This document shows positions 14,264 to 23,474 of a DNA stretch of 64,000 nucleotides, in pieces. Position numbers and translations under genes: made by a program. Each line of letters starts with the position of its first letter. The first letter of the stretch is position 1. The notes under the pieces were generated by a model that made no database searches, had not been told where the DNA came from, and worked only from the letters and a program-made list of their open reading frames with translations. This DNA comes from Hawksworthiomyces lignivorus (Eukaryota; Ascomycota; Sordariomycetes; Ophiostomatales; Ophiostomataceae), in contig NTMA01000059.1 of assembly GCA_002917075.1 (NCBI GenBank), positions 312,097 to 376,096 of the forward strand, in the 5' to 3' direction.

Positions 14264-17200
14264 TCAGCTTGTGGAGCTTGACAAAAGAGTAATTACATCC
14301 TGGTTCCCAGAGGCCCAATTGATGGCCGTCCGACCGTCCTTGTCTCGGATTTCTGGGTCCGCCTGCGAACCCAGCAGTTTCTTTACCACCTCCTTGTGGC
14401 CGTTTTCAGCTGCCAGTGACAGTGCTGTCCGATCAGCCTTGTCCCTTGCATCAATATTGACAAGACCTGTCTCGAGAAGCGCTTCAACTACCTCTAGGTG
14501 GCCATTCTTTGCCGCCAGTTGAAGTGCCGTACGATTGAGGTCGTCTTTCTTATTTACGTCGGCCTTTCCATTTTCCAAGAGCTCATGAGCAACCCATTTG
14601 TGGCCGTTCACCGCAGCCCACATAAGCTCTGTCCAACCTTGAGGGCCCTTCGAGTCAACCTCGGCTTGGCCCGTTCCGAGAAGCACTCTTACCACGGAAA
14701 GATGTCCGCTCAGTGCCGCCAATGACAGTGCCGTCAGGCCGTGCTCGTCACTCAGGTTTATTAATCTAGCCTCACTGTGACGAACAAGCTCCGCAACGAC
14801 TTCCGTGTGCCCGTTTGCTGCCGCTAGGAAAAGTGCTGTCCAGCCGAAGTTGTCTGTCTTGTCCATGTCGGCCTTATGTGTGAGGAGCGACTTAACAACG
14901 GCGATATGTCCTTTGTCTGCAGCTCGACAGAGTGCCGTACGGCCATATTTATCTTTCGCATTGATTTCGACGCCGGGTGTGTCGAGCAGCGCATCGACTA
15001 TGTGATGATGGCCACTACCTGCCGCTAAGATGAGTGCAGTTCGGCCCGCTTTATCCTTGACGTTAAGAGGAGCATTTCCTGTAGCAAGGAGATCTCTGAC
15101 AGCATTTATGCGACCATCTCGAGCTGCCCACAAGAGCTCCTTCGTCCGATCGTCTGTACTGTTGGTAGGACTCTCCGTCTTCGCTATATGGATAAGCCTC
15201 CTGGCAATATCAGTATGACCATCTTGAACCGCTAGTGAAAGAGCGCTTAAGCCGTATACTGTCTTCATCCCAATTCCAAGCTGGAGAATGCCACTAAGCG
15301 CCTTTACCACCCCAACATAGCCTCTCCACTCCGAAAGGGGGAGCGCAGGTGTTTGCCCAGACCTGCGTATTCTCTGGGCAACATTGATATAGGCTGCCCA
15401 CCATTCCCTAGAGATTCTCACCGGGCTGTACATGGCTACGCCTGTGCGAAGAAAGAATTTTACCAGGTCGGTGCGGCCACTCATAGCTGCTTTGTAGAGT
15501 AACTTCAGCTGACCTTTGACGATTTGATCATTGACAACTTCGAAAGAGAAGTTTGCTCGGTGCCCACGTACAATCTGACCAAATTCGACCCGTTCAGCCA
15601 TTCCGTCCCTAAGCACCTTCACCACATCCGCATGTTTTTCTTTCTCTGCACGCCGGAGTGCGTTTTCCATCGTATCGATGCTAGCATTTCCATCATCGAT
15701 GAGGAGCTTAACCATCTCGGCATCACGCCTTTGCACCGCCCAGCTGAGCGCAGTTTCGCCATTGTTATCCGTGACGTTAACATCAGCATTGCCACTGACA
15801 AGAAGATCACAGACCACCTGCTTGTATGCTACCTGAACTGAGCGCATAAGTGCGGTCCAGCCGTGTCTATGTTCAGTAACATCAACATCAGCCCTCCCTG
15901 TTTTGAGAATCTTTTTAACCACGCCGGCATGCCCATTCCACGCCGCCATAATAAGAGCTGTCTGACCGTTCTGGCTTTTCACGTTAATGTCGATTGCGTC
16001 AGTGCGAAGAAGTGCGTCAACGACACTAGCATGGCCTTTTGCTGCGGCGTGCATGAGTGCAGTCCAGCCACTGATACTTGTAGCATTGATTTGGTCCTCG
16101 TCCATGCTAGCCATGAGCACCTCGACTGTTGCGATAACGCCGTTCTTCGCTGCCAGTGCAAGTGCTGTGTCGCCGTTATAGTCCTTTGTGTCGATCTTCG
16201 CCTTGGCCAAGAGCTCCTTGACCACGTCAACATGGCCTTTTTGTGCCGCCTGCATAAGTGGCGTCAGGCCATAGTTGTTTTTGGCGTCAGGGTCAATCAC
16301 TACCATGCTAACAAGCTCCTTAACTATGTTTGCATGGCCATTACTCGCTGCGCAGAAGAGTGGTGTACAATAACAATGATCTTTTGCATTAATGTCGATC
16401 CCACTTTTTTGCAGAAGCTTCTTCACCACATCAACATGACCATTCTCTGCCGCCCGTAACAGCGCGGTCCGGCCATGTATATCCTTCGCGTTGGCGGCGG
16501 CGGTCGGTATTGCATCAAGCAGCACTTGGACAACGTTGGTATGGCCACTCTTTGTTGCCAGTGAGAGGGCGGTCTGGCCATCTTTGTCTTTTACGTTCAC
16601 ATCTGCCTTTTGCTTCAGCAGCTTTTGAACCACCGCAACAGAGTTGTGCCGCGCTGCAAACATGAGGGCTGTGCGACCTTCTTCGTCTCTCGCATCGATG
16701 TCTACTTTCCGGTTCTTGACAAGTACGTCAACGACGCTATCGTAGCCCTTCCATGCTGCTAATAAAAGTGCAGTGCGATCCTGGCTGTCCTGCACATTGA
16801 TCTCGGCCTCACCTACGTGGCGAAGAATCTGCTTGACCTTGTCCACGCTGCCATCCCAAGCTGCTTGCAGAAGAGGAGGCCAGCCATCCATTTCCTCTGG
16901 GTCAATTTCAGCAATTCCTGCATCACGGAGCACTTTGATGACATTGTCATGATCTCCGGCTAAAGCAAGTGCAGTTTGCCCGTTGTTATTTTGCTCATTG
17001 ATATCGGATTTTCCTGTGTCGAGCAGCGTCTTTACAACGTCTGAATGCCCATTGCTTGCAGCTCGTAGAAGCGCTGTCCAGCCGTCCTTGTCCTTGGTGT
17101 TGACCTTAGCTCTTCCCGTTTCAAGAAGTTCTAAGACGACATCCATATGACCTTTTCCTGCTGCGCGTGCGAGTGCAGTCCAGCCATCAGCGTCTCTCAA

Positions 17201-20200
17201 GTTGATCATGATCGTTTTCATTTTAAGCAGTTCTCTGATCACGCCCACATGGCCATTTACTGCTGCTAGTATGAGGGCCGTGGAGTTGTTTTTGTCGCCG
17301 GTGTTGATACTGGCCTTGCCAGAGTCAATAAGCACTCGCACTACGTTCGCAGAGCCAATCCCCGCCGCTAGCATGAGCGCTGTCCGACCATCCTTGCTTT
17401 TCACATTAGCATCAACTTTATTAGTGTCGAGGAGTTCTTTAGCTATATCAGCGTAGCCGGCCTCGGCCGCGAGCATTAGCGGCGTCCTGCCCGTCTCATC
17501 TTCAGCGTTAAATTCAATTGTGTCTCTGGCGAGGAGTTCCTGAACGACCTCAAATTGGCCGTTTAAAGCTGCCAGAGCGAGTGCTGTCCAGCCATTGTCA
17601 TTTTTTACGCAGATATCGACTGTTTCTGCGCTCAGAAGAGATTTCACAACGTCTTGATGACCCTTCGATGCTGCATATAGAAGTGCCGTCATACCATCTT
17701 TGTCTTTTCTATTGACATCGGCATTCTGTTTCTGAGCAAGGACTTTGACCACGTCTGGATGATTTCTCTCTGCTGCCAGTGAGATCGCGGTACGGCCAGA
17801 GCTGTCCGTCACATTAATATCGACGTCGTCGTCGTAGAGAAGTCTCTGAATCATAGATATATTGCCGTTCTGGGCCTCTTGCAGGAGCCTCTCTTCGTTG
17901 ATTACGTTCGGATGTTCGCTGCGAATTTCCGTAACTAGGCTCTTGTGGCTATCCTGAGCGAGTGAAATAGATGTCCTACCTTGTTTTTCTGTCGCTTTGG
18001 CATCTGCCCCTTTTCTGACAAGTTCTCTGACTACCTTCGCGTGGCCATTCTCTGTCGCCCATGAGAGCGGCGTCCGGCCGTACTCGTCCTTTGCGTTGAC
18101 TTTGATCTTCTCTTTTCCCAGACGGAGAAGGACCTCAACCACAGCTTCGTGCCCTCTCTCCGCTGCCCAGGAGAGGGCTGGTCGACCGTCCTTGTCCTTG
18201 ATAGTGATATCTGCTCTCTGGTTGTTGATGAGCTCTTCGATCACTTCGACATGGCCGTTCTCTGCTGCTATCGAGAGCGCCGTGCGGCCGCACACATCCG
18301 TCACGTCGATCCCTCCTCCGCCATTGATGAAATCAGCTATCGTGCGTGAAGAGGCGAGCGCCCGCACTACGCCTATGTGGCCTTTCCTAGCCGCCAACAT
18401 AAGTGGGGTCTGGCCCTTCTTGTCCCTCGCATCCACATCAGCTTTTCGTTCTTTAAGCAGTTTGACTATATCGTCAAATCCGTTCTGCGATGCGAGGGAA
18501 ATTGCCGTCTGGCCATTCTCATCTTTGACATCAATCTCGACCCTTCTTCTTCTGAAAAGCTCAGTAGCTTTCGTCTCTCGTGGTCCAAGAAGCTTCTCGA
18601 CCACTTCCTTGTGACCATTCCACGCCGCCAGCAAGAGAGGCGTCCGCTTGTTTTTATCTCCTGCGTTGATCTCTACCATTCCCGTACCAAGAAGCCTCTC
18701 TACGATATCGGAATGTCCATTTGCTGCTGCCAATGAGAGCGCCGTCCGGTAGTGTTCATCCTTGGCGTTGATATGCTGCTTTTTCATTGACTGGAGCAAT
18801 GCGTCCAGTGTCTTTGTCAGTTGGTATTGCGACGCAAGATGCACCATAGTTGTTCCTTCCGGCAGGCTATGCCTTGGATCTACTCTGCGACAATGTAGAA
18901 TGGATCTTTTCCAAAAGTCTTCTGATGGCCAGTCTGGATTGTTCGCGAGACAGGTCAAGAATTCTTCCGTCTGTCCCAGTTTGAGGTGCGATATCCATGA
19001 TGTCGTCACGTAGTCCAGGAGAGGATATTTCAAGACCAATTTGTCTTGTTCAACCCCTTCTATGTCCACCGTATCTAGATACTGAATGCAGCTTCTCAGC
19101 AACCGAAAGTGGGACATTTTGGCAACCGGATCTGTCTGGAAAATGTCGAGCTCAAGCAAACCTTGGCGCTTGCTCAGGGTTGATATGCCCCGTCCAACAA
19201 AATACTGCCTGACTGACTCGTGAATGAATTGCACCACACCCGCATCGCATGGGCTCGTTATCTCGACAAGGCCACTGCTAAGTGTTGTAATCATATTTTT
19301 CATATTGCAGTCGGCCCAAGAGGTCCCCGGGGCAGGGGATGATTGCTCTGGGCCGTAAGAGAGGTGGCCATCCAAACTCATTGCATACCGAAGTTCTAGC
19401 ACGGTTAGAGGTCGCATAGAAAAGGAGATCCATTGAATCAATTTCATGGAATCGGAGACATTTTCCATGCCATCGACGAGAGTTTCGTATAAATTGTCCA
19501 ATGTTGACCCCATAGAAGGGATTCTGCCTTCGACCTGGCGCCAACTATATCCTTGGTCGCGGAGTTTTGTAATGTGTTCTACGGTGAGACGTGCCCACAA
19601 GAACATGCCAGAAACCTTGCTCAAAACTAACCGCGGAATTTTTGGTGGAACTGGGGACAATGAGCGTAATTTGGTTTCCACAAAAGTCTGGATGTCTTTT
19701 GTGTTTTGGTCCTCGAGAACGATCAACAGGTCTTGTTCTAAGACCGGATAATGGCGGCAAGCACAGCAGACACGAAACTTTTGATGGGCAGGTGGGATCT
19801 TGTAGAGTAGGTTTTTGAACCATTCAACCAAGCTCTTTGCCTGGTCATCGCCACACTCGTCTAGGGCATCGATGAACAGCAGGACCGGCCGATCGGCCAG
19901 GACCGTCAAAATCGACGACTCAAAGAGGGCCTTCAGTTCTGGCAGTTCCCATTCCCACTTCTGGCCTTCTTTTCCCAGAGAATCCTGCTTTTCTTGAAAA
20001 GCTCTCAAGACAACTTGCTTGGCGTCGGGGTCGAAGCGGAGGAGCTGGTGAAGGAGCGACCGGAACAGGCCCAATGGCGATTTTTCGATGCCTTCGCCGC
20101 GGCCGTGGAAGAAGAAGCGGAGGACCAGGGTTGTCGCCTCGACGGCGCTGGCTTTCGAGATGTTGTCGACTGCGTACCGGAGCAGCGTTGATTTTCCCGA

Positions 20201-20644
20201 GCCAGGCTTTCCCTTTATCATCAGCAGCGCGCCTGGGCTGCTCTTGGTCCACTCGACAAATGTGCCGGGCTCGAACAGCCACTCATATGTTCCGCTGGCG
20301 GGACTGGCAATCTCTCCATATCGACTGTCCATACGAGGGAAAGCCAGGGACTGCATGCACTCTTTTACGCTTTGGAAAGGCTCAGGCGGTGTTTGCCAGC
20401 CAAAGTCTAGAACATGTGTTAGCTGGGTACATGTGCTTGAACGACAAAAAGAATGCAAGCTCTTACAGATATTTTGAATTTTGGCATTGTATTGGCCCTG
20501 ACCATGAAAGAGATTGTTCTGGGTGCCTTCGCCTGCGTTTAGAGCATGATTACCTGGCAGCTCGTGGGGGATGAGCAAGTCCACGATTTGTGAGTTGCCT
20601 GGCTGAGCTTGGCTCCTCCCAAAACGTTTCCGAAGTGACTTCAT
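14264..20644 (-). CDS. NACHT-ankyrin NLR (STAND) with N-terminal sigma-type amyloid motif
   Basis: Predicted intracellular sensor of the fungal NLR class that controls regulated cell death. Exon 1 is 20467-20644 and exon 2 is 14264-20406, giving 2106 residues. Residues 30-58 hold a Gly/Asn/Gln motif, NAGEGTQNNLFHGQGQYN, matching the C-terminal motif of the divergent SesA-type protein. The NACHT domain follows: Walker A GKPGSGKST at about 125-133 and Walker B LLFIDALDEC near 235-244. From about residue 640 to the end come roughly 40 ankyrin repeats (DKDGRTALxLAAxNGHxxVVxxLL type), interrupted for about 90 residues around 15250-15560 by degenerate sequence. The 60-base intron is a multiple of three, so unspliced RNA also stays open (2126 residues). 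Codon choice is visibly less GC-biased than in neighbours. Ligand unknown. Confidence 0.9.
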   Translation of the reverse strand: MKSLRKRFGRSQAQPGNSQIVDLLIPHELPGNHALNAGEGTQNNLFHGQGQYNAKIQNICKSLHSFCRSSTCTQLTHVLDFGWQTPPEPFQSVKECMQSLAFPRMDSRYGEIASPASGTYEWLFEPGTFVEWTKSSPGALLMIKGKPGSGKSTLLRYAVDNISKASAVEATTLVLRFFFHGRGEGIEKSPLGLFRSLLHQLLRFDPDAKQVVLRAFQEKQDSLGKEGQKWEWELPELKALFESSILTVLADRPVLLFIDALDECGDDQAKSLVEWFKNLLYKIPPAHQKFRVCCACRHYPVLEQDLLIVLEDQNTKDIQTFVETKLRSLSPVPPKIPRLVLSKVSGMFLWARLTVEHITKLRDQGYSWRQVEGRIPSMGSTLDNLYETLVDGMENVSDSMKLIQWISFSMRPLTVLELRYAMSLDGHLSYGPEQSSPAPGTSWADCNMKNMITTLSSGLVEITSPCDAGVVQFIHESVRQYFVGRGISTLSKRQGLLELDIFQTDPVAKMSHFRLLRSCIQYLDTVDIEGVEQDKLVLKYPLLDYVTTSWISHLKLGQTEEFLTCLANNPDWPSEDFWKRSILHCRRVDPRHSLPEGTTMVHLASQYQLTKTLDALLQSMKKQHINAKDEHYRTALSLAAANGHSDIVERLLGTGMVEINAGDKNKRTPLLLAAWNGHKEVVEKLLGPRETKATELFRRRRVEIDVKDENGQTAISLASQNGFDDIVKLLKERKADVDARDKKGQTPLMLAARKGHIGVVRALASSRTIADFINGGGGIDVTDVCGRTALSIAAENGHVEVIEELINNQRADITIKDKDGRPALSWAAERGHEAVVEVLLRLGKEKIKVNAKDEYGRTPLSWATENGHAKVVRELVRKGADAKATEKQGRTSISLAQDSHKSLVTEIRSEHPNVINEERLLQEAQNGNISMIQRLLYDDDVDINVTDSSGRTAISLAAERNHPDVVKVLAQKQNADVNRKDKDGMTALLYAASKGHQDVVKSLLSAETVDICVKNDNGWTALALAALNGQFEVVQELLARDTIEFNAEDETGRTPLMLAAEAGYADIAKELLDTNKVDANVKSKDGRTALMLAAGIGSANVVRVLIDSGKASINTGDKNNSTALILAAVNGHVGVIRELLKMKTIMINLRDADGWTALARAAGKGHMDVVLELLETGRAKVNTKDKDGWTALLRAASNGHSDVVKTLLDTGKSDINEQNNNGQTALALAGDHDNVIKVLRDAGIAEIDPEEMDGWPPLLQAAWDGSVDKVKQILRHVGEAEINVQDSQDRTALLLAAWKGYDSVVDVLVKNRKVDIDARDEEGRTALMFAARHNSVAVVQKLLKQKADVNVKDKDGQTALSLATKSGHTNVVQVLLDAIPTAAANAKDIHGRTALLRAAENGHVDVVKKLLQKSGIDINAKDHCYCTPLFCAASNGHANIVKELVSMVVIDPDAKNNYGLTPLMQAAQKGHVDVVKELLAKAKIDTKDYNGDTALALAAKNGVIATVEVLMASMDEDQINATSISGWTALMHAAAKGHASVVDALLRTDAIDINVKSQNGQTALIMAAWNGHAGVVKKILKTGRADVDVTEHRHGWTALMRSVQVAYKQVVCDLLVSGNADVNVTDNNGETALSWAVQRRDAEMVKLLIDDGNASIDTMENALRRAEKEKHADVVKVLRDGMAERVEFGQIVRGHRANFSFEVVNDQIVKGQLKLLYKAAMSGRTDLVKFFLRTGVAMYSPVRISREWWAAYINVAQRIRRSGQTPALPLSEWRGYVGVVKALSGILQLGIGMKTVYGLSALSLAVQDGHTDIARRLIHIAKTESPTNSTDDRTKELLWAARDGRINAVRDLLATGNAPLNVKDKAGRTALILAAGSGHHHIVDALLDTPGVEINAKDKYGRTALCRAADKGHIAVVKSLLTHKADMDKTDNFGWTALFLAAANGHTEVVAELVRHSEARLINLSDEHGLTALSLAALSGHLSVVRVLLGTGQAEVDSKGPQGWTELMWAAVNGHKWVAHELLENGKADVNKKDDLNRTALQLAAKNGHLEVVEALLETGLVNIDARDKADRTALSLAAENGHKEVVKKLLGSQADPEIRDKDGRTAINWASGNQDVITLLSSSTS
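20407..20466 (-). other. In-frame 60-base intron after the sigma motif exon
   Basis: On the minus strand it begins GTAAGA, contains the branch-like GCTAAC and ends TTCTAG. Splicing joins I59 to YFGWQTPPE. Retention adds 20 residues including three cysteines between the motif and the NACHT domain without a stop. The intron falls exactly where the motif ends. Confidence 0.7.
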
Positions 20645-22823
20645 TATTAAGTGCGCGCGTAGTAGACCGAATCGAGAAACGTTAAAACGGAGTAACTGGG
20701 CTGGCTAGGAATCCCAGCTGAGAAGCTTTCGTGTCTCAAGGGGGCGAAATCATTCCGTAGAATTCATCGATCTAACGATCTTGTTCAAATTATGGGCCTT
20801 GGACTGCGAAGTTGATATGAGCATTAGTACTTCTCCTAGAAGAGCATGCAGAGACCCGGATTCACGATATCACACCTTTTTATGAATAATGCAAATCACA
20901 AACCTGAATGTTGTCTGGTTGTGGAAAGGACAAGACCCTTGGGCGACGATACTGGACTACGGAATTACACAAATACACTAGCTAGGCTTCCAGCCTCCAA
21001 GGAAGAGGAGAGCACTCAGCAGAGAAATATGTCACTAACACCTTTCAAACACGCTCATTCCAGAAAGCAAGAGAAAGCCTGATCAAAGACGTAGCCAGAG
21101 TCCATACTCAGCGCCTCCAAGTCATGTCTATTGGCCAGAGAAAAAGCCAGAAACCAGAAACTACCTTGTTCAGAGACTACCTCGGATTCGCATTCTCTGC
21201 AGCCCTCTCATGAAGTTAGCCAACGTGCCAACTTCTTCGCCTCGCTGTCTCACCAGAGCCGCTTCTGCCGGCACCAAGACAGCCCTGCCGGTTCCCCTCC
21301 CCAGGAAAAGATAGGTTGCAGAGCCCCTTTTAATCCAGGCAGGAATGGGGAGACTGGGAAATCAGCTGGATGAGTAAGAGTCAGACACAAGAAACATTTG
21401 GAAACAACTTCTCCAATCATTTTGCAATATTTTCAAATCGTGGCGCGCTCCACCCCTGCACTCGCCGGAAGGATTTGCGCAAGACGCTCTGTCTGCAGCC
21501 CTGGTGTTCGTGTTCAAGGAGGCTGAAGGAGCCTACGGGGACTCGGGGACCCTGAAAAGCAAAATGGATGTCCGGCATTTCAGCTATCACCGTTCCCTGG
21601 CACGCCCCCAACACCCCACTAGCACACCACTGACACAACGATGTCAGGTGCCGCTCTGCTACACCAGCACCAACGGGATGGTCCGCTTCGAAAAAACTTC
21701 TGGTCTTCAGCCTTAATTCTTGGCATTCTTGCCGAGCCTGGAACTTCTCTAGTAACAGCTGCTGCCACTTTTTGCCAGCCTGGCCGATGTCTTTTTTTTT
21801 TTTTAACCCCTTTTAAGGTATATCAGCAAGCGGGATGTGCACCAGTACCAGCCTCATCTATGTTTGTCGTAGTTACTTTTGACCTACCAAGATTTTGTAG
21901 GAACAAACAGAAACATGCATATCTTAGCAGGATGTATGTAGTAACCAGTAACATTTCCGAAGATCCTTGGGGGGGATATGCCAGGAATGACAAATAGAGT
22001 CTTGCAGAAAAGGTTTGAATGTTCAATTTTAAATCGTTTTTCAGTGGCGAGTCTCTCCAGAAAGTCAGTCCCATGCGGCTGGCTGCAGGTTGGTTGGCGG
22101 ACCCCTGTCCGTGGTGGTAATTTGCTGGTCTCGGCAGCCCTAGGCAAGTGGCTCAGACGTGACACAGCGTCTTATTATGGATGGCGCAGGATTCTACAGA
22201 GGGTGCCGAAAAGACGAGGCTAGCGTCAGTTTCTCTGCAAGCAGAAAAAAAAAAGGACCACAAAGGACTGTAACAAAGATGTAAATCCACTCTCCTGATT
22301 CTGGGCATGTAGTCGTGGCGCATCCTCGACCGGATATCTAAAACTAGGAAATGACTTTTCATTTTTTAGGTGTATATAACGAAGCTGCGGCCCGACATTT
22401 GGGGTAATAAGGCTGATTCGAGTCGGCAAGTAGAGCATCCGACAACTGGAGAGGGTGAGATGCGCCACACTGCAGCTGCGTAGCTGCTACAGGATTTTCT
22501 ATAGGTAGCTTGTCCAGGCGCCATGCCGCAAGCTGATACTGCGCCTCAGATGGAGGATTTCCCCCTAACCCTTTTTCAACGGTGATTTGATGGTTGTCTT
22601 TTCTATAAGTGCAGCGAATTTTTGCACCTTCAGTTTCTTGTGAACATGATATGGCAGAAATAGTCTACACTCCGTAGAAGCATATTTCTCCTATTTGTAT
22701 TCCAGCCTGTTTGGGCGAGGGATTCGCAGCGAGCAAGCGGCTGCTTTATTTTAGGATCACCTCAGCTAACAAAAGCTCTTTTTGAAGCCCGTCTTTCAGG
22801 TCTTGGCAAGGAATCTCCAAGAC
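20645..22823. other. Divergent intergenic region between NLR and SesA-type effector
   Basis: 2.2 kb separating the start codons of the NLR (minus) and the SesA-type gene (plus), so it must hold both promoters. I find no gene, no second motif copy and no clear transposon remnant. There is a T-run near 21790. All ORFs are under 120 codons and unrecognisable. Confidence 0.55.
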
Positions 22824-23474
22824 ATGGACCCCCTCAGCGTTATAGCGTCCGTAATCGGCATCATCGAAGGTGTTGCATCTGCGTATGCTGCCATCAAGCA
22901 TCTCAAAGGCCTGCCCAAAGCCTTCGACGAGGTCAACAGGTGCCTTCCTATCGCGCTCGACACTCTCAATGCTGCCAAGCAGGTGACGCTAGACGAGGTA
23001 TCAAAAACAGTGGTCTTGCCTATCATTACAAACTGTGACAAGAAGGCCAAGAAGCTCCAGGCCGTCTTCAAGGAAGTCGAAGAGAAGGGCAAAAAGGACG
23101 GGCTCTGGTCCAAGGCCTATCCCTTTCTGCTTCGGCTGGGAAAAGCAGATCGAGTCGAGAGCCTGATGAAGGCCATTTTGGAGGACCTGCGACGGCTGGC
23201 AATCAATCAGTCATTCAAGACGGCAACCCGGGATCAGATTGCTGGGCTAGAGCAGTCCATCAAGAAGCTCGCTGAAGTCGAGCCATCGATTCCCGACTCG
23301 GAGTTCGACACCCCCGGAACAGTGAGCATCAGTCAGTCTGTGGCCGCCGGCGGGACGGGGCACCAGGCCGTTAATACCGGCTCCGGAACGCAAAATAATA
23401 CGTTCGGCGGCAACCAGTTCAACTCAGGTGGCGCACCGATGCACTTCGGTATGGGCTTTTTAGGAGGGAATTGA
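22824..23474 (+). CDS. SesA-domain protein with C-terminal sigma-type amyloid motif
   Basis: Single exon, 216 residues. Residues 1 to about 155 match the SesA domain otherwise found at the N-terminus of fungal NACHT proteins: a hydrophobic first helix (LSVIASVIGIIEGVASAY), then GLPKAFDEV, LPIALDTLNAA and VESLMKAILEDL. After a Pro/Ser linker, residues about 177-202 carry NTGSGTQNNTFGGNQFN, the same motif as the N-terminus of the divergent NLR. Family knowledge: such motifs form a beta-solenoid amyloid that passes the signal from NLR to effector, and SesA/HeLo-like helical domains are execution domains that may act at membranes. The cell-death role here is inference. The start at 22824 (MDPLSV) is the family start; an ATG at 22782 would add 14 residues. 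Confidence 0.88.
   Translation: MDPLSVIASVIGIIEGVASAYAAIKHLKGLPKAFDEVNRCLPIALDTLNAAKQVTLDEVSKTVVLPIITNCDKKAKKLQAVFKEVEEKGKKDGLWSKAYPFLLRLGKADRVESLMKAILEDLRRLAINQSFKTATRDQIAGLEQSIKKLAEVEPSIPDSEFDTPGTVSISQSVAAGGTGHQAVNTGSGTQNNTFGGNQFNSGGAPMHFGMGFLGGN

Follow-up and report, generated by a model that had tools for sequence, protein, structure and literature searches.

Do two divergently transcribed genes of the ascomycete Hawksworthiomyces lignivorus, one encoding a NOD-like receptor (NLR) and the other a protein with a SesA domain, form a receptor and an executioner that communicate through an amyloid motif, and is that motif the sigma motif of other fungi? The genes lie in a stretch of 64,000 nucleotides of contig NTMA01000059.1 (positions 312,097 to 376,096, forward strand), hereafter the window, and all coordinates without a contig name are counted from its first letter. 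An earlier note on this DNA had described the pair as a complete cell-death switch with a common motif of the sigma type. The published amyloid-signalling pairs have the same anatomy (PMC3321046, PMC5485727). Based on the comparisons reported below, the NLR and the SesA protein are probably a receptor/executioner pair signalling by amyloid-fold templating through a divergent sigma-like motif family, a judgement that applies to both parts of the statement jointly.

The gene pair and its common motif

The NLR gene (14264..20644, minus strand) is a single open frame of 2126 aa, intact from the first Met at 20644 to the stop at 14264-14266, and encodes a short motif-bearing N-terminus, a nucleotide-binding oligomerization domain (NOD) of the NACHT/NPHP3_N type and a long ankyrin array. 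The SesA gene (22824..23474, plus strand; coding 22824-23471 and stop), whose product is a putative cell-death executioner of 216 aa, is likewise intact, and the start codons of these divergent neighbours are 2.2 kb apart. No effector family was found before residue 118 of the NLR among the matches listed (25 of 26 Pfam families), and none in residues 1-81. The earlier description of a stand-alone SesA protein next to a divergent NLR lacking a recognised effector domain therefore stands.

The top local alignment of the two proteins joins residues 31-54 of the NLR (GNHALNAGEGTQNNLFHGQGQYNA; 20483..20554, minus strand) with residues 179-201 of the SesA protein (GHQAVNTGSGTQNNTFGGNQFNS; 23358..23426, plus strand) at a BLOSUM62 score of 65 with 13 identities. 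This match is longer than the one seen in the earlier note, whose two quotations, NAGEGTQNNLFHGQGQYN and NTGSGTQNNTFGGNQFN, are found unchanged at NLR residues 36-53 and SesA residues 184-200. The NLR motif consists to 54% of G/N/Q and to 4% of charged residues. When the 117-residue N-terminus of the NLR was shuffled 20,000 times, the score was never reached; when the Gly/Asn-rich biased segments alone were shuffled, it was reached once in 20,000 trials. Among 45 tails, namely those of 32 database SesA relatives, the window SesA and 12 open reading frames (ORFs) from the same genome, the NLR motif ranks its adjacent SesA first (65; next 52); the 12 ORFs include two SesB, the contig-110 pair and the extensions on contigs 25 and 175, which were later recognised as NLR N-termini. 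In the reverse comparison of the SesA tail with 108 pre-NOD segments, the window NLR again came first, followed by an NLR (P0044, score 56) that is itself annotated as sigma in Pfam. This set left out the NLRs of contigs 25 and 175, which score higher (121 and 170), and the window NLR was dropped as the best partner of SesA once they were added. The same codon is used at two of the 13 identical residues, against 5.3 expected from codon usage, which rules out a recent DNA duplication of the motif and indicates that the likeness resides in the protein. Judged by these sequence comparisons, the common motif proposed in the earlier note is real, the match being beyond chance.

The preference for the neighbour was also assessed across the genome (43.7 Mb), in which 12 SesA places were found, 11 of them above the Pfam cut-off. 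A pairing matrix was computed for six receptors and ten effector tails, the latter from seven of the 12 SesA places, two SesB and a SesB-like protein of contig 110; the five SesA places outside the matrix are contig 159 with its in-frame TGA, C147:250662, C180, C14 and C170. Each receptor having an adjacent effector scores highest with that neighbour: 65 (next 52) for the window, 67 (47) for contig 114, which has sesB, sesA and a NACHT-ankyrin NLR, 78 (57) for contig 118, which has sesA and an NLR with ankyrins, and 104 (64) for contig 110. In the corresponding 4x4 sub-matrix every pair is mutually best, and the true pairing is the best of the 24 permutations and the only one to reach the observed sum.

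The SesA domain (residues 7-125; 22842..23198, plus strand) matches Pfam PF17107 with an expectation value (E) of 2.3e-30 (105.7 bits, cut-off 26.3). It is predicted to be a helical bundle, every block of the AlphaFold2 model within residues 1-130 having a mean predicted local distance difference test score (pLDDT) of at least 83. It is followed by a linker helix (residues 136-151; 23229..23276, plus strand), whose homologous residues start the NLRs of contigs 25 and 175, and by a C-terminal tail (residues 165-212; 23316..23459, plus strand) that is Gly/Asn/Gln-rich (44% G/N/Q), uncharged (0% charged residues) and predicted to be unstructured, with pLDDT below 50 from residue 165 onward.

Relation to the sigma motifs

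Published sigma motifs comprise three repeats of the types A (GxGxQFN) and B (GGTQNINT), arranged as AAA, ABA or ABB (PMC3321046). When the SesA tail is aligned with sigma motifs from this genome, three repeat-like units can be read in it, GTGHQAVN, GSGTQNNTF and GGNQFN. We built a profile from 13 sigma and sigma-like motifs, nine from the same genome (two contig-110 rows among them) and four from database NLRs, with the window rows excluded. In a search of 3,728 ORFs with this profile, the SesA tail was the top ORF outside the training rows, with E of 1.9e-6, or 0.010 once composition was corrected for. The window NLR reaches 6.4 bits, more than any of 101 other NLR segments (maximum 3.7), a set without the four NLRs that had contributed to the profile, and more than any of 33 shuffled tails (maximum 3.5). 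At E <= 1, the Pfam sigma profile (NACHT_sigma, PF17106) is found in six of 33 SesA proteins, the window SesA included, with a best value of 0.0041. The motif exon of the contig-114 NLR, which belongs to a sesB-sesA-NLR cluster like those published, likewise lacks a Pfam match, so the missing Pfam profile is weak evidence against sigma relationship.

A number of results nevertheless weigh against a receptor and executioner joined by a sigma-like motif. The NLR motif has two clear units, the first repeat being degenerate. In the SesA tail PF17106 gives E 0.35 (11.5 bits, cut-off 27.6); in the NLR it is absent from the matches listed (25 of 26 families) and from the first 81 residues, and genome-wide it is found at E <= 1 at eight places, with neither window protein among them. 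The window NLR is insignificant against the home-built sigma profile (E 2.1 and 8.4) and against a profile of SesA tails (-0.8 bits), and a protein search for other NLRs with its N-terminus returned eight candidates, none at E <= 10. For 14 of the 32 SesA relatives, the score against the sigma profile does not exceed that of the best shuffled tail, which makes the likeness of the window SesA's clade to sigma uneven. The permutation test above is small, its sub-matrix omits the NLRs of contigs 25 and 175, which lack an adjacent effector, and one of its four pairs, that of contig 110, looks like a recent DNA copy. The helical-bundle model of SesA resembles MLKL among other bundles, and bundles without a death role match it at the Z-score of MLKL (dynactin 12.0, THATCH 10.9), all within the range of the tool for chance helical matches; a Foldseek search with the model gave no match at E <= 0.001, MLKL having E 0.55. 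A SesA profile searched against the sequences of solved structures gave six matches at E <= 1, the best being a TFIID subunit (0.021), and no known death domain.

Membership of the sigma family by profile is accordingly rejected for the NLR, which is insignificant against the sigma profile and has no PF17106 among its listed matches, and the label "sigma-type" is only partly right: the SesA tail resembles the sigma repeats while remaining under the PF17106 cut-off.

Two unlinked NLRs that match the SesA tail

Two further NLRs of the genome have N-termini homologous to the linker helix and tail of SesA: a NACHT-ankyrin NLR on contig 25 (L049:9473-9665 into L050) and a tetratricopeptide repeat (TPR) NLR with a weak NB-ARC match on contig 175 (L047:9416-9635 into L048). 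The local scores against the window SesA tail, 170 for contig 175 and 121 for contig 25 compared with 65 for the window NLR, likewise count against the adjacent pair, and the SesA-tail profile ranks the three in the same order (45.8, 37.3 and -0.8 bits). The next best tails of the same genome reach 57 for the contig-25 NLR and 96 for the contig-175 NLR. Among foreign SesA tails, four are better than the window SesA for contig 175 (among them that of Thozetella P0006, at 236) and five for contig 25, so each of the two NLRs may have lost its true partner. Judging from these alignments, the window SesA may be a shared executioner, or merely a surviving relative of lost partners.

Gene models, drawn from splice-site patterns and frame only, place one short predicted intron between extension and NOD in each NLR, and a second in the P-loop on contig 175. 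With 33 SesA queries, the best matches upstream of the two motifs within SesA residues 1-130 had E 0.042 (contig 25) and 0.096 (contig 175), and with no recognisable SesA domain upstream, fused SesA-NLRs found no support on either contig. A few alignments anchored in the contig-175 tail extend leftward to 117113-117158 (E down to 1.9e-8, tail included) and may reflect either a decayed SesA remnant or over-extension. On both contigs the homology starts ahead of the first ATG in the extension, by nine codons on contig 175 (best match, 117389 versus 117416) and by 3 to 19 codons on contig 25 (three best matches); this is what a truncated SesA-bearing gene would leave, and might also reflect an unseen upstream exon.

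How these NLRs bear on the window pair can be read in more than one way. Possibly, though we hold this tentatively, a convergent amyloid network has the window SesA as its only executioner, and in it at least three NLRs with two NOD classes and two sensor types converge on its tail, the unlinked ones being derived from fused SesA-NLRs that lost the SesA domain and kept linker and tail; such a network may be likened to plants, where sensor NLRs converge on a helper. It is unlikely that the adjacent NLR is not the main partner at all, SesA being driven mainly by the NLRs of contigs 25 and 175 while the core of the window NLR motif is decaying or was acquired independently. Apart from the local and profile scores, this alternative gains from the failure to find in the genome another SesA whose tail is similarly close (the runner-up, on contig 137, is far behind at E 4.5e-4), and from the 20-kb stretches around both NLRs, in which two motif profiles listed no ORF except the extension itself. 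It has against it that the window NLR motif fits the SesA core GTQNN-x-F better than the other nine tails tested from the genome, that the pair is adjacent with scrambled codons, and that foreign SesA tails surpass the window SesA for both unlinked NLRs. The claim of a complete switch is affected accordingly: the best tail in the genome for the window NLR is that of its neighbour, and the switch as described may be too narrow, with two unlinked NLRs scoring above it.

A less probable account regards the tail as a conserved flexible extension of the SesA family, which is no signalling amyloid, and the NLR match as the leftover of a SesA-NLR fusion. The tail is indeed alignable across the 32 relatives, 14 of which are inconspicuous against the sigma profile, genes that look like SesA-NLR fusions lie on contigs 151 and 46, with a further such case in a database protein (P0055), and the extensions of contigs 25 and 175 contain the non-amyloid linker helix; yet two NLRs without a recognisable SesA domain retain the tail at their N-termini, the window tail is uncharged and Gly/Asn/Gln-rich with the sigma repeat pattern, and the local match of the window NLR spans the motif and not the linker helix. 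Chance likeness of two Gly/Asn-rich disordered ends seems very improbable. The segments are compositionally biased, and the pair was picked for the earlier note after 64 kb had been read; against this stand the single shuffle in 20,000 of the biased segments that reaches the score, the first rank of the own SesA among 45 tails and the differing codons.

In the favoured mechanism of amyloid templating between receptor and executioner, binding of a ligand by the ankyrin array would lead the NACHT NLR to oligomerise, and the clustered N-terminal motifs (residues 31-54) would fold into a cross-beta seed. The seed would recruit and convert the disordered C-terminal tail of SesA (about residues 165-212), and the resulting clustering would activate the SesA helical bundle, leading to membrane attack and killing of the cell compartment. 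The two unlinked NLRs may also reach SesA in this manner. Established here are the genes and their domains, a motif match beyond chance, its in-genome preference, a predicted unstructured and uncharged tail and a helical-bundle model; each step beyond the common motif, namely oligomerisation, amyloid folding, templating and killing, we infer from published relatives (the HET-S/NWD2 model, PMC3321046).

Genomic context, known systems and significance

The NOD of the NLR (residues 118-297; 19754..20293, minus strand) is of the NPHP3_N, NACHT-type class (PF24883, E 4.8e-30), with PF05729 NACHT slightly under its cut-off (E 1.6e-5, 25.2 bits, cut-off 26.7), and both its Walker A (GKPGSGKS at residue 145) and Walker B (LLFIDALDE at 255) motifs are intact. 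The ankyrin-repeat sensor region extends from about residue 680, an approximate boundary, to 2126 (14267..18607, minus strand), as defined by Pfam (35 stretches of PF00023, 20 of PF12796) and by repeat-like units spanning residues 711-2104. In the intergenic region (20645..22823, no strand) no third gene was recognised, none of the five ORFs tested having a Pfam match at E <= 0.01, and no SesB was seen among the listed frames around the two genes. An all-in-one SesA-NLR was rejected for this locus, with SesA and NOD on separate divergent genes. Nearby genes are housekeeping-like, including a legume-like lectin gene, an NSRP1-like gene and a DEAD-box helicase; a TIM13-like gene was also identified by eye.

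Elsewhere in the genome, PF17106 is above its cut-off at six of its eight places, all from contigs 114, 118 (where the first exon of the NLR passes it) and 133, the remaining two being on contig 110. On contig 133 (L043:6197-7381; L043:9433 into L044) sesB and sesA have sigma motifs above the Pfam cut-off, and no NLR was found among ORFs of at least 200 aa in the surrounding 20 kb, so that the receptor of this pair may be elsewhere or lost. Contigs 151 and 46 have fused-looking SesA-NB-ARC-TPR and SesA-TPR genes. A HET-domain gene is convergent on contig 137 (L036:201-2282) with a SesA gene, the tail of which has one GTGNQFN unit, and the SesA-like gene of contig 159 (278617-279165), with an in-frame TGA and a SesA match ending near residue 176, looks decayed.

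On contig 110 (77747-80648; L045:7747-8750, L045:9764 to L046:648) a SesB-like hydrolase gene, identified by eye, has a C-terminal sigma-like motif; of its two fragments one has no Pfam match and the other weak NACHT_sigma alone. The neighbouring gene, on the same strand, codes for a protein with two hevein-like 8-cysteine modules, a Ser/Thr-rich stalk and a hydrophobic helix, whose tail has almost the same motif (Chitin_bind_1 E 0.0095, NACHT_sigma E 0.46, both under the cut-offs). The two motifs have 17 of 23 residues identical, 14 of these 17 with the same codon, which at the sequence level suggests a recent copy or gene conversion. If real, the hevein-like protein would possibly be a membrane receptor, not an NLR, that uses an amyloid motif; our literature search, in which most subscription journals were outside the coverage, listed no case of a non-NLR membrane receptor with such a motif.

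A 2012 study (PMC3321046) described sigma pairs, their co-evolution within a locus and the alternative of fused genes. The window pair is close to the sesA/sesB/het-eN cluster (Secteur) of Nectria haematococca (PMC3321046, PMC5485727), with which it shares, as far as that cluster is described in these sources, a SesA executioner with a C-terminal motif, an adjacent NACHT-ankyrin NLR without effector domain, repeats of the G-x-G-x-Q and GTQN types and motifs that are most alike within the locus. Unlike the Nectria cluster, the window locus has no SesB in view, a SesA motif under the PF17106 cut-off, an NLR motif not listed by Pfam with a degenerate first repeat, and additional unlinked NLRs sharing the tail.

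An NLR/SesA pair with a motif outside the known families was reported in 2025 from Fusarium oxysporum Fo5176, the GDQN motif pair of KAI8417719, a probable NLR, and KAI8417720, a SesA protein (PMC12261475), whose adjacency we take from the consecutive accession numbers. Against the published pattern alone (NxxxGxQYxxxGxGDQNxVSxxxxQxN), the window NLR agrees at 7 of 13 fixed positions without gaps and SesA at 6, or at 8 if a one-residue gap of our choosing is allowed; the spacing is common to both systems, and the D, V and S of GDQN-VS correspond to T, L/T and F in the window pair. At least seven positions are reached by five of 221,141 ORF segments, the other four being the sigma-like motifs of contigs 110 and 114. 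With this partial agreement, membership of the GDQN family was rejected.

In HET-S/NWD2 of Podospora anserina the N-terminal motif of the NLR similarly templates the C-terminal motif of an adjacent helical-bundle executioner (PMC3321046, PMC12881547); the 21-residue HET-s motif, repeated in HET-S, and the HeLo domain differ, and this is not the window motif. Unlinked amyloid partners are suspected for HRAM/NLR12 with PNP_UDP effectors, where in some genomes each effector-side motif is matched by a mean of 5.7 NLR-side motifs (PMC9815663). This offers a parallel, in a different motif and effector family, for one effector on which several NLRs, some of them not adjacent, are suspected to act. 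For sigma, Table 1 of that study counts 45 motifs on the NLR side and 43 on the effector side that co-occur in genomes, about 1:1, and a review also mentions predicted unlinked partners (PMC7889193). Within the same coverage, none of the papers listed by our literature search deals with the window pair or describes a SesA executioner shared by several receptors.

The window pair thus appears as a divergent version of a recognised kind of death switch, the new point being the two unlinked NLRs that match its SesA better. NLR/effector amyloid pairs can be too weak for the standard sigma profile to detect, and such pairs can be found by tail-to-receptor matching inside one genome. The locus also provides a concrete example in which a single executioner may serve several NLRs belonging to different classes. 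Whether split pairs arise by fission of fused genes, or fused genes by fusion of pairs, was posed as an open question in PMC3321046; the two NLRs bearing the linker helix, as far as their sequences indicate, speak for a fused gene that lost its SesA domain. If the convergent network is true, the retention of linker and tail in the unlinked NLRs would directly show the route from signalling in cis to signalling in trans.

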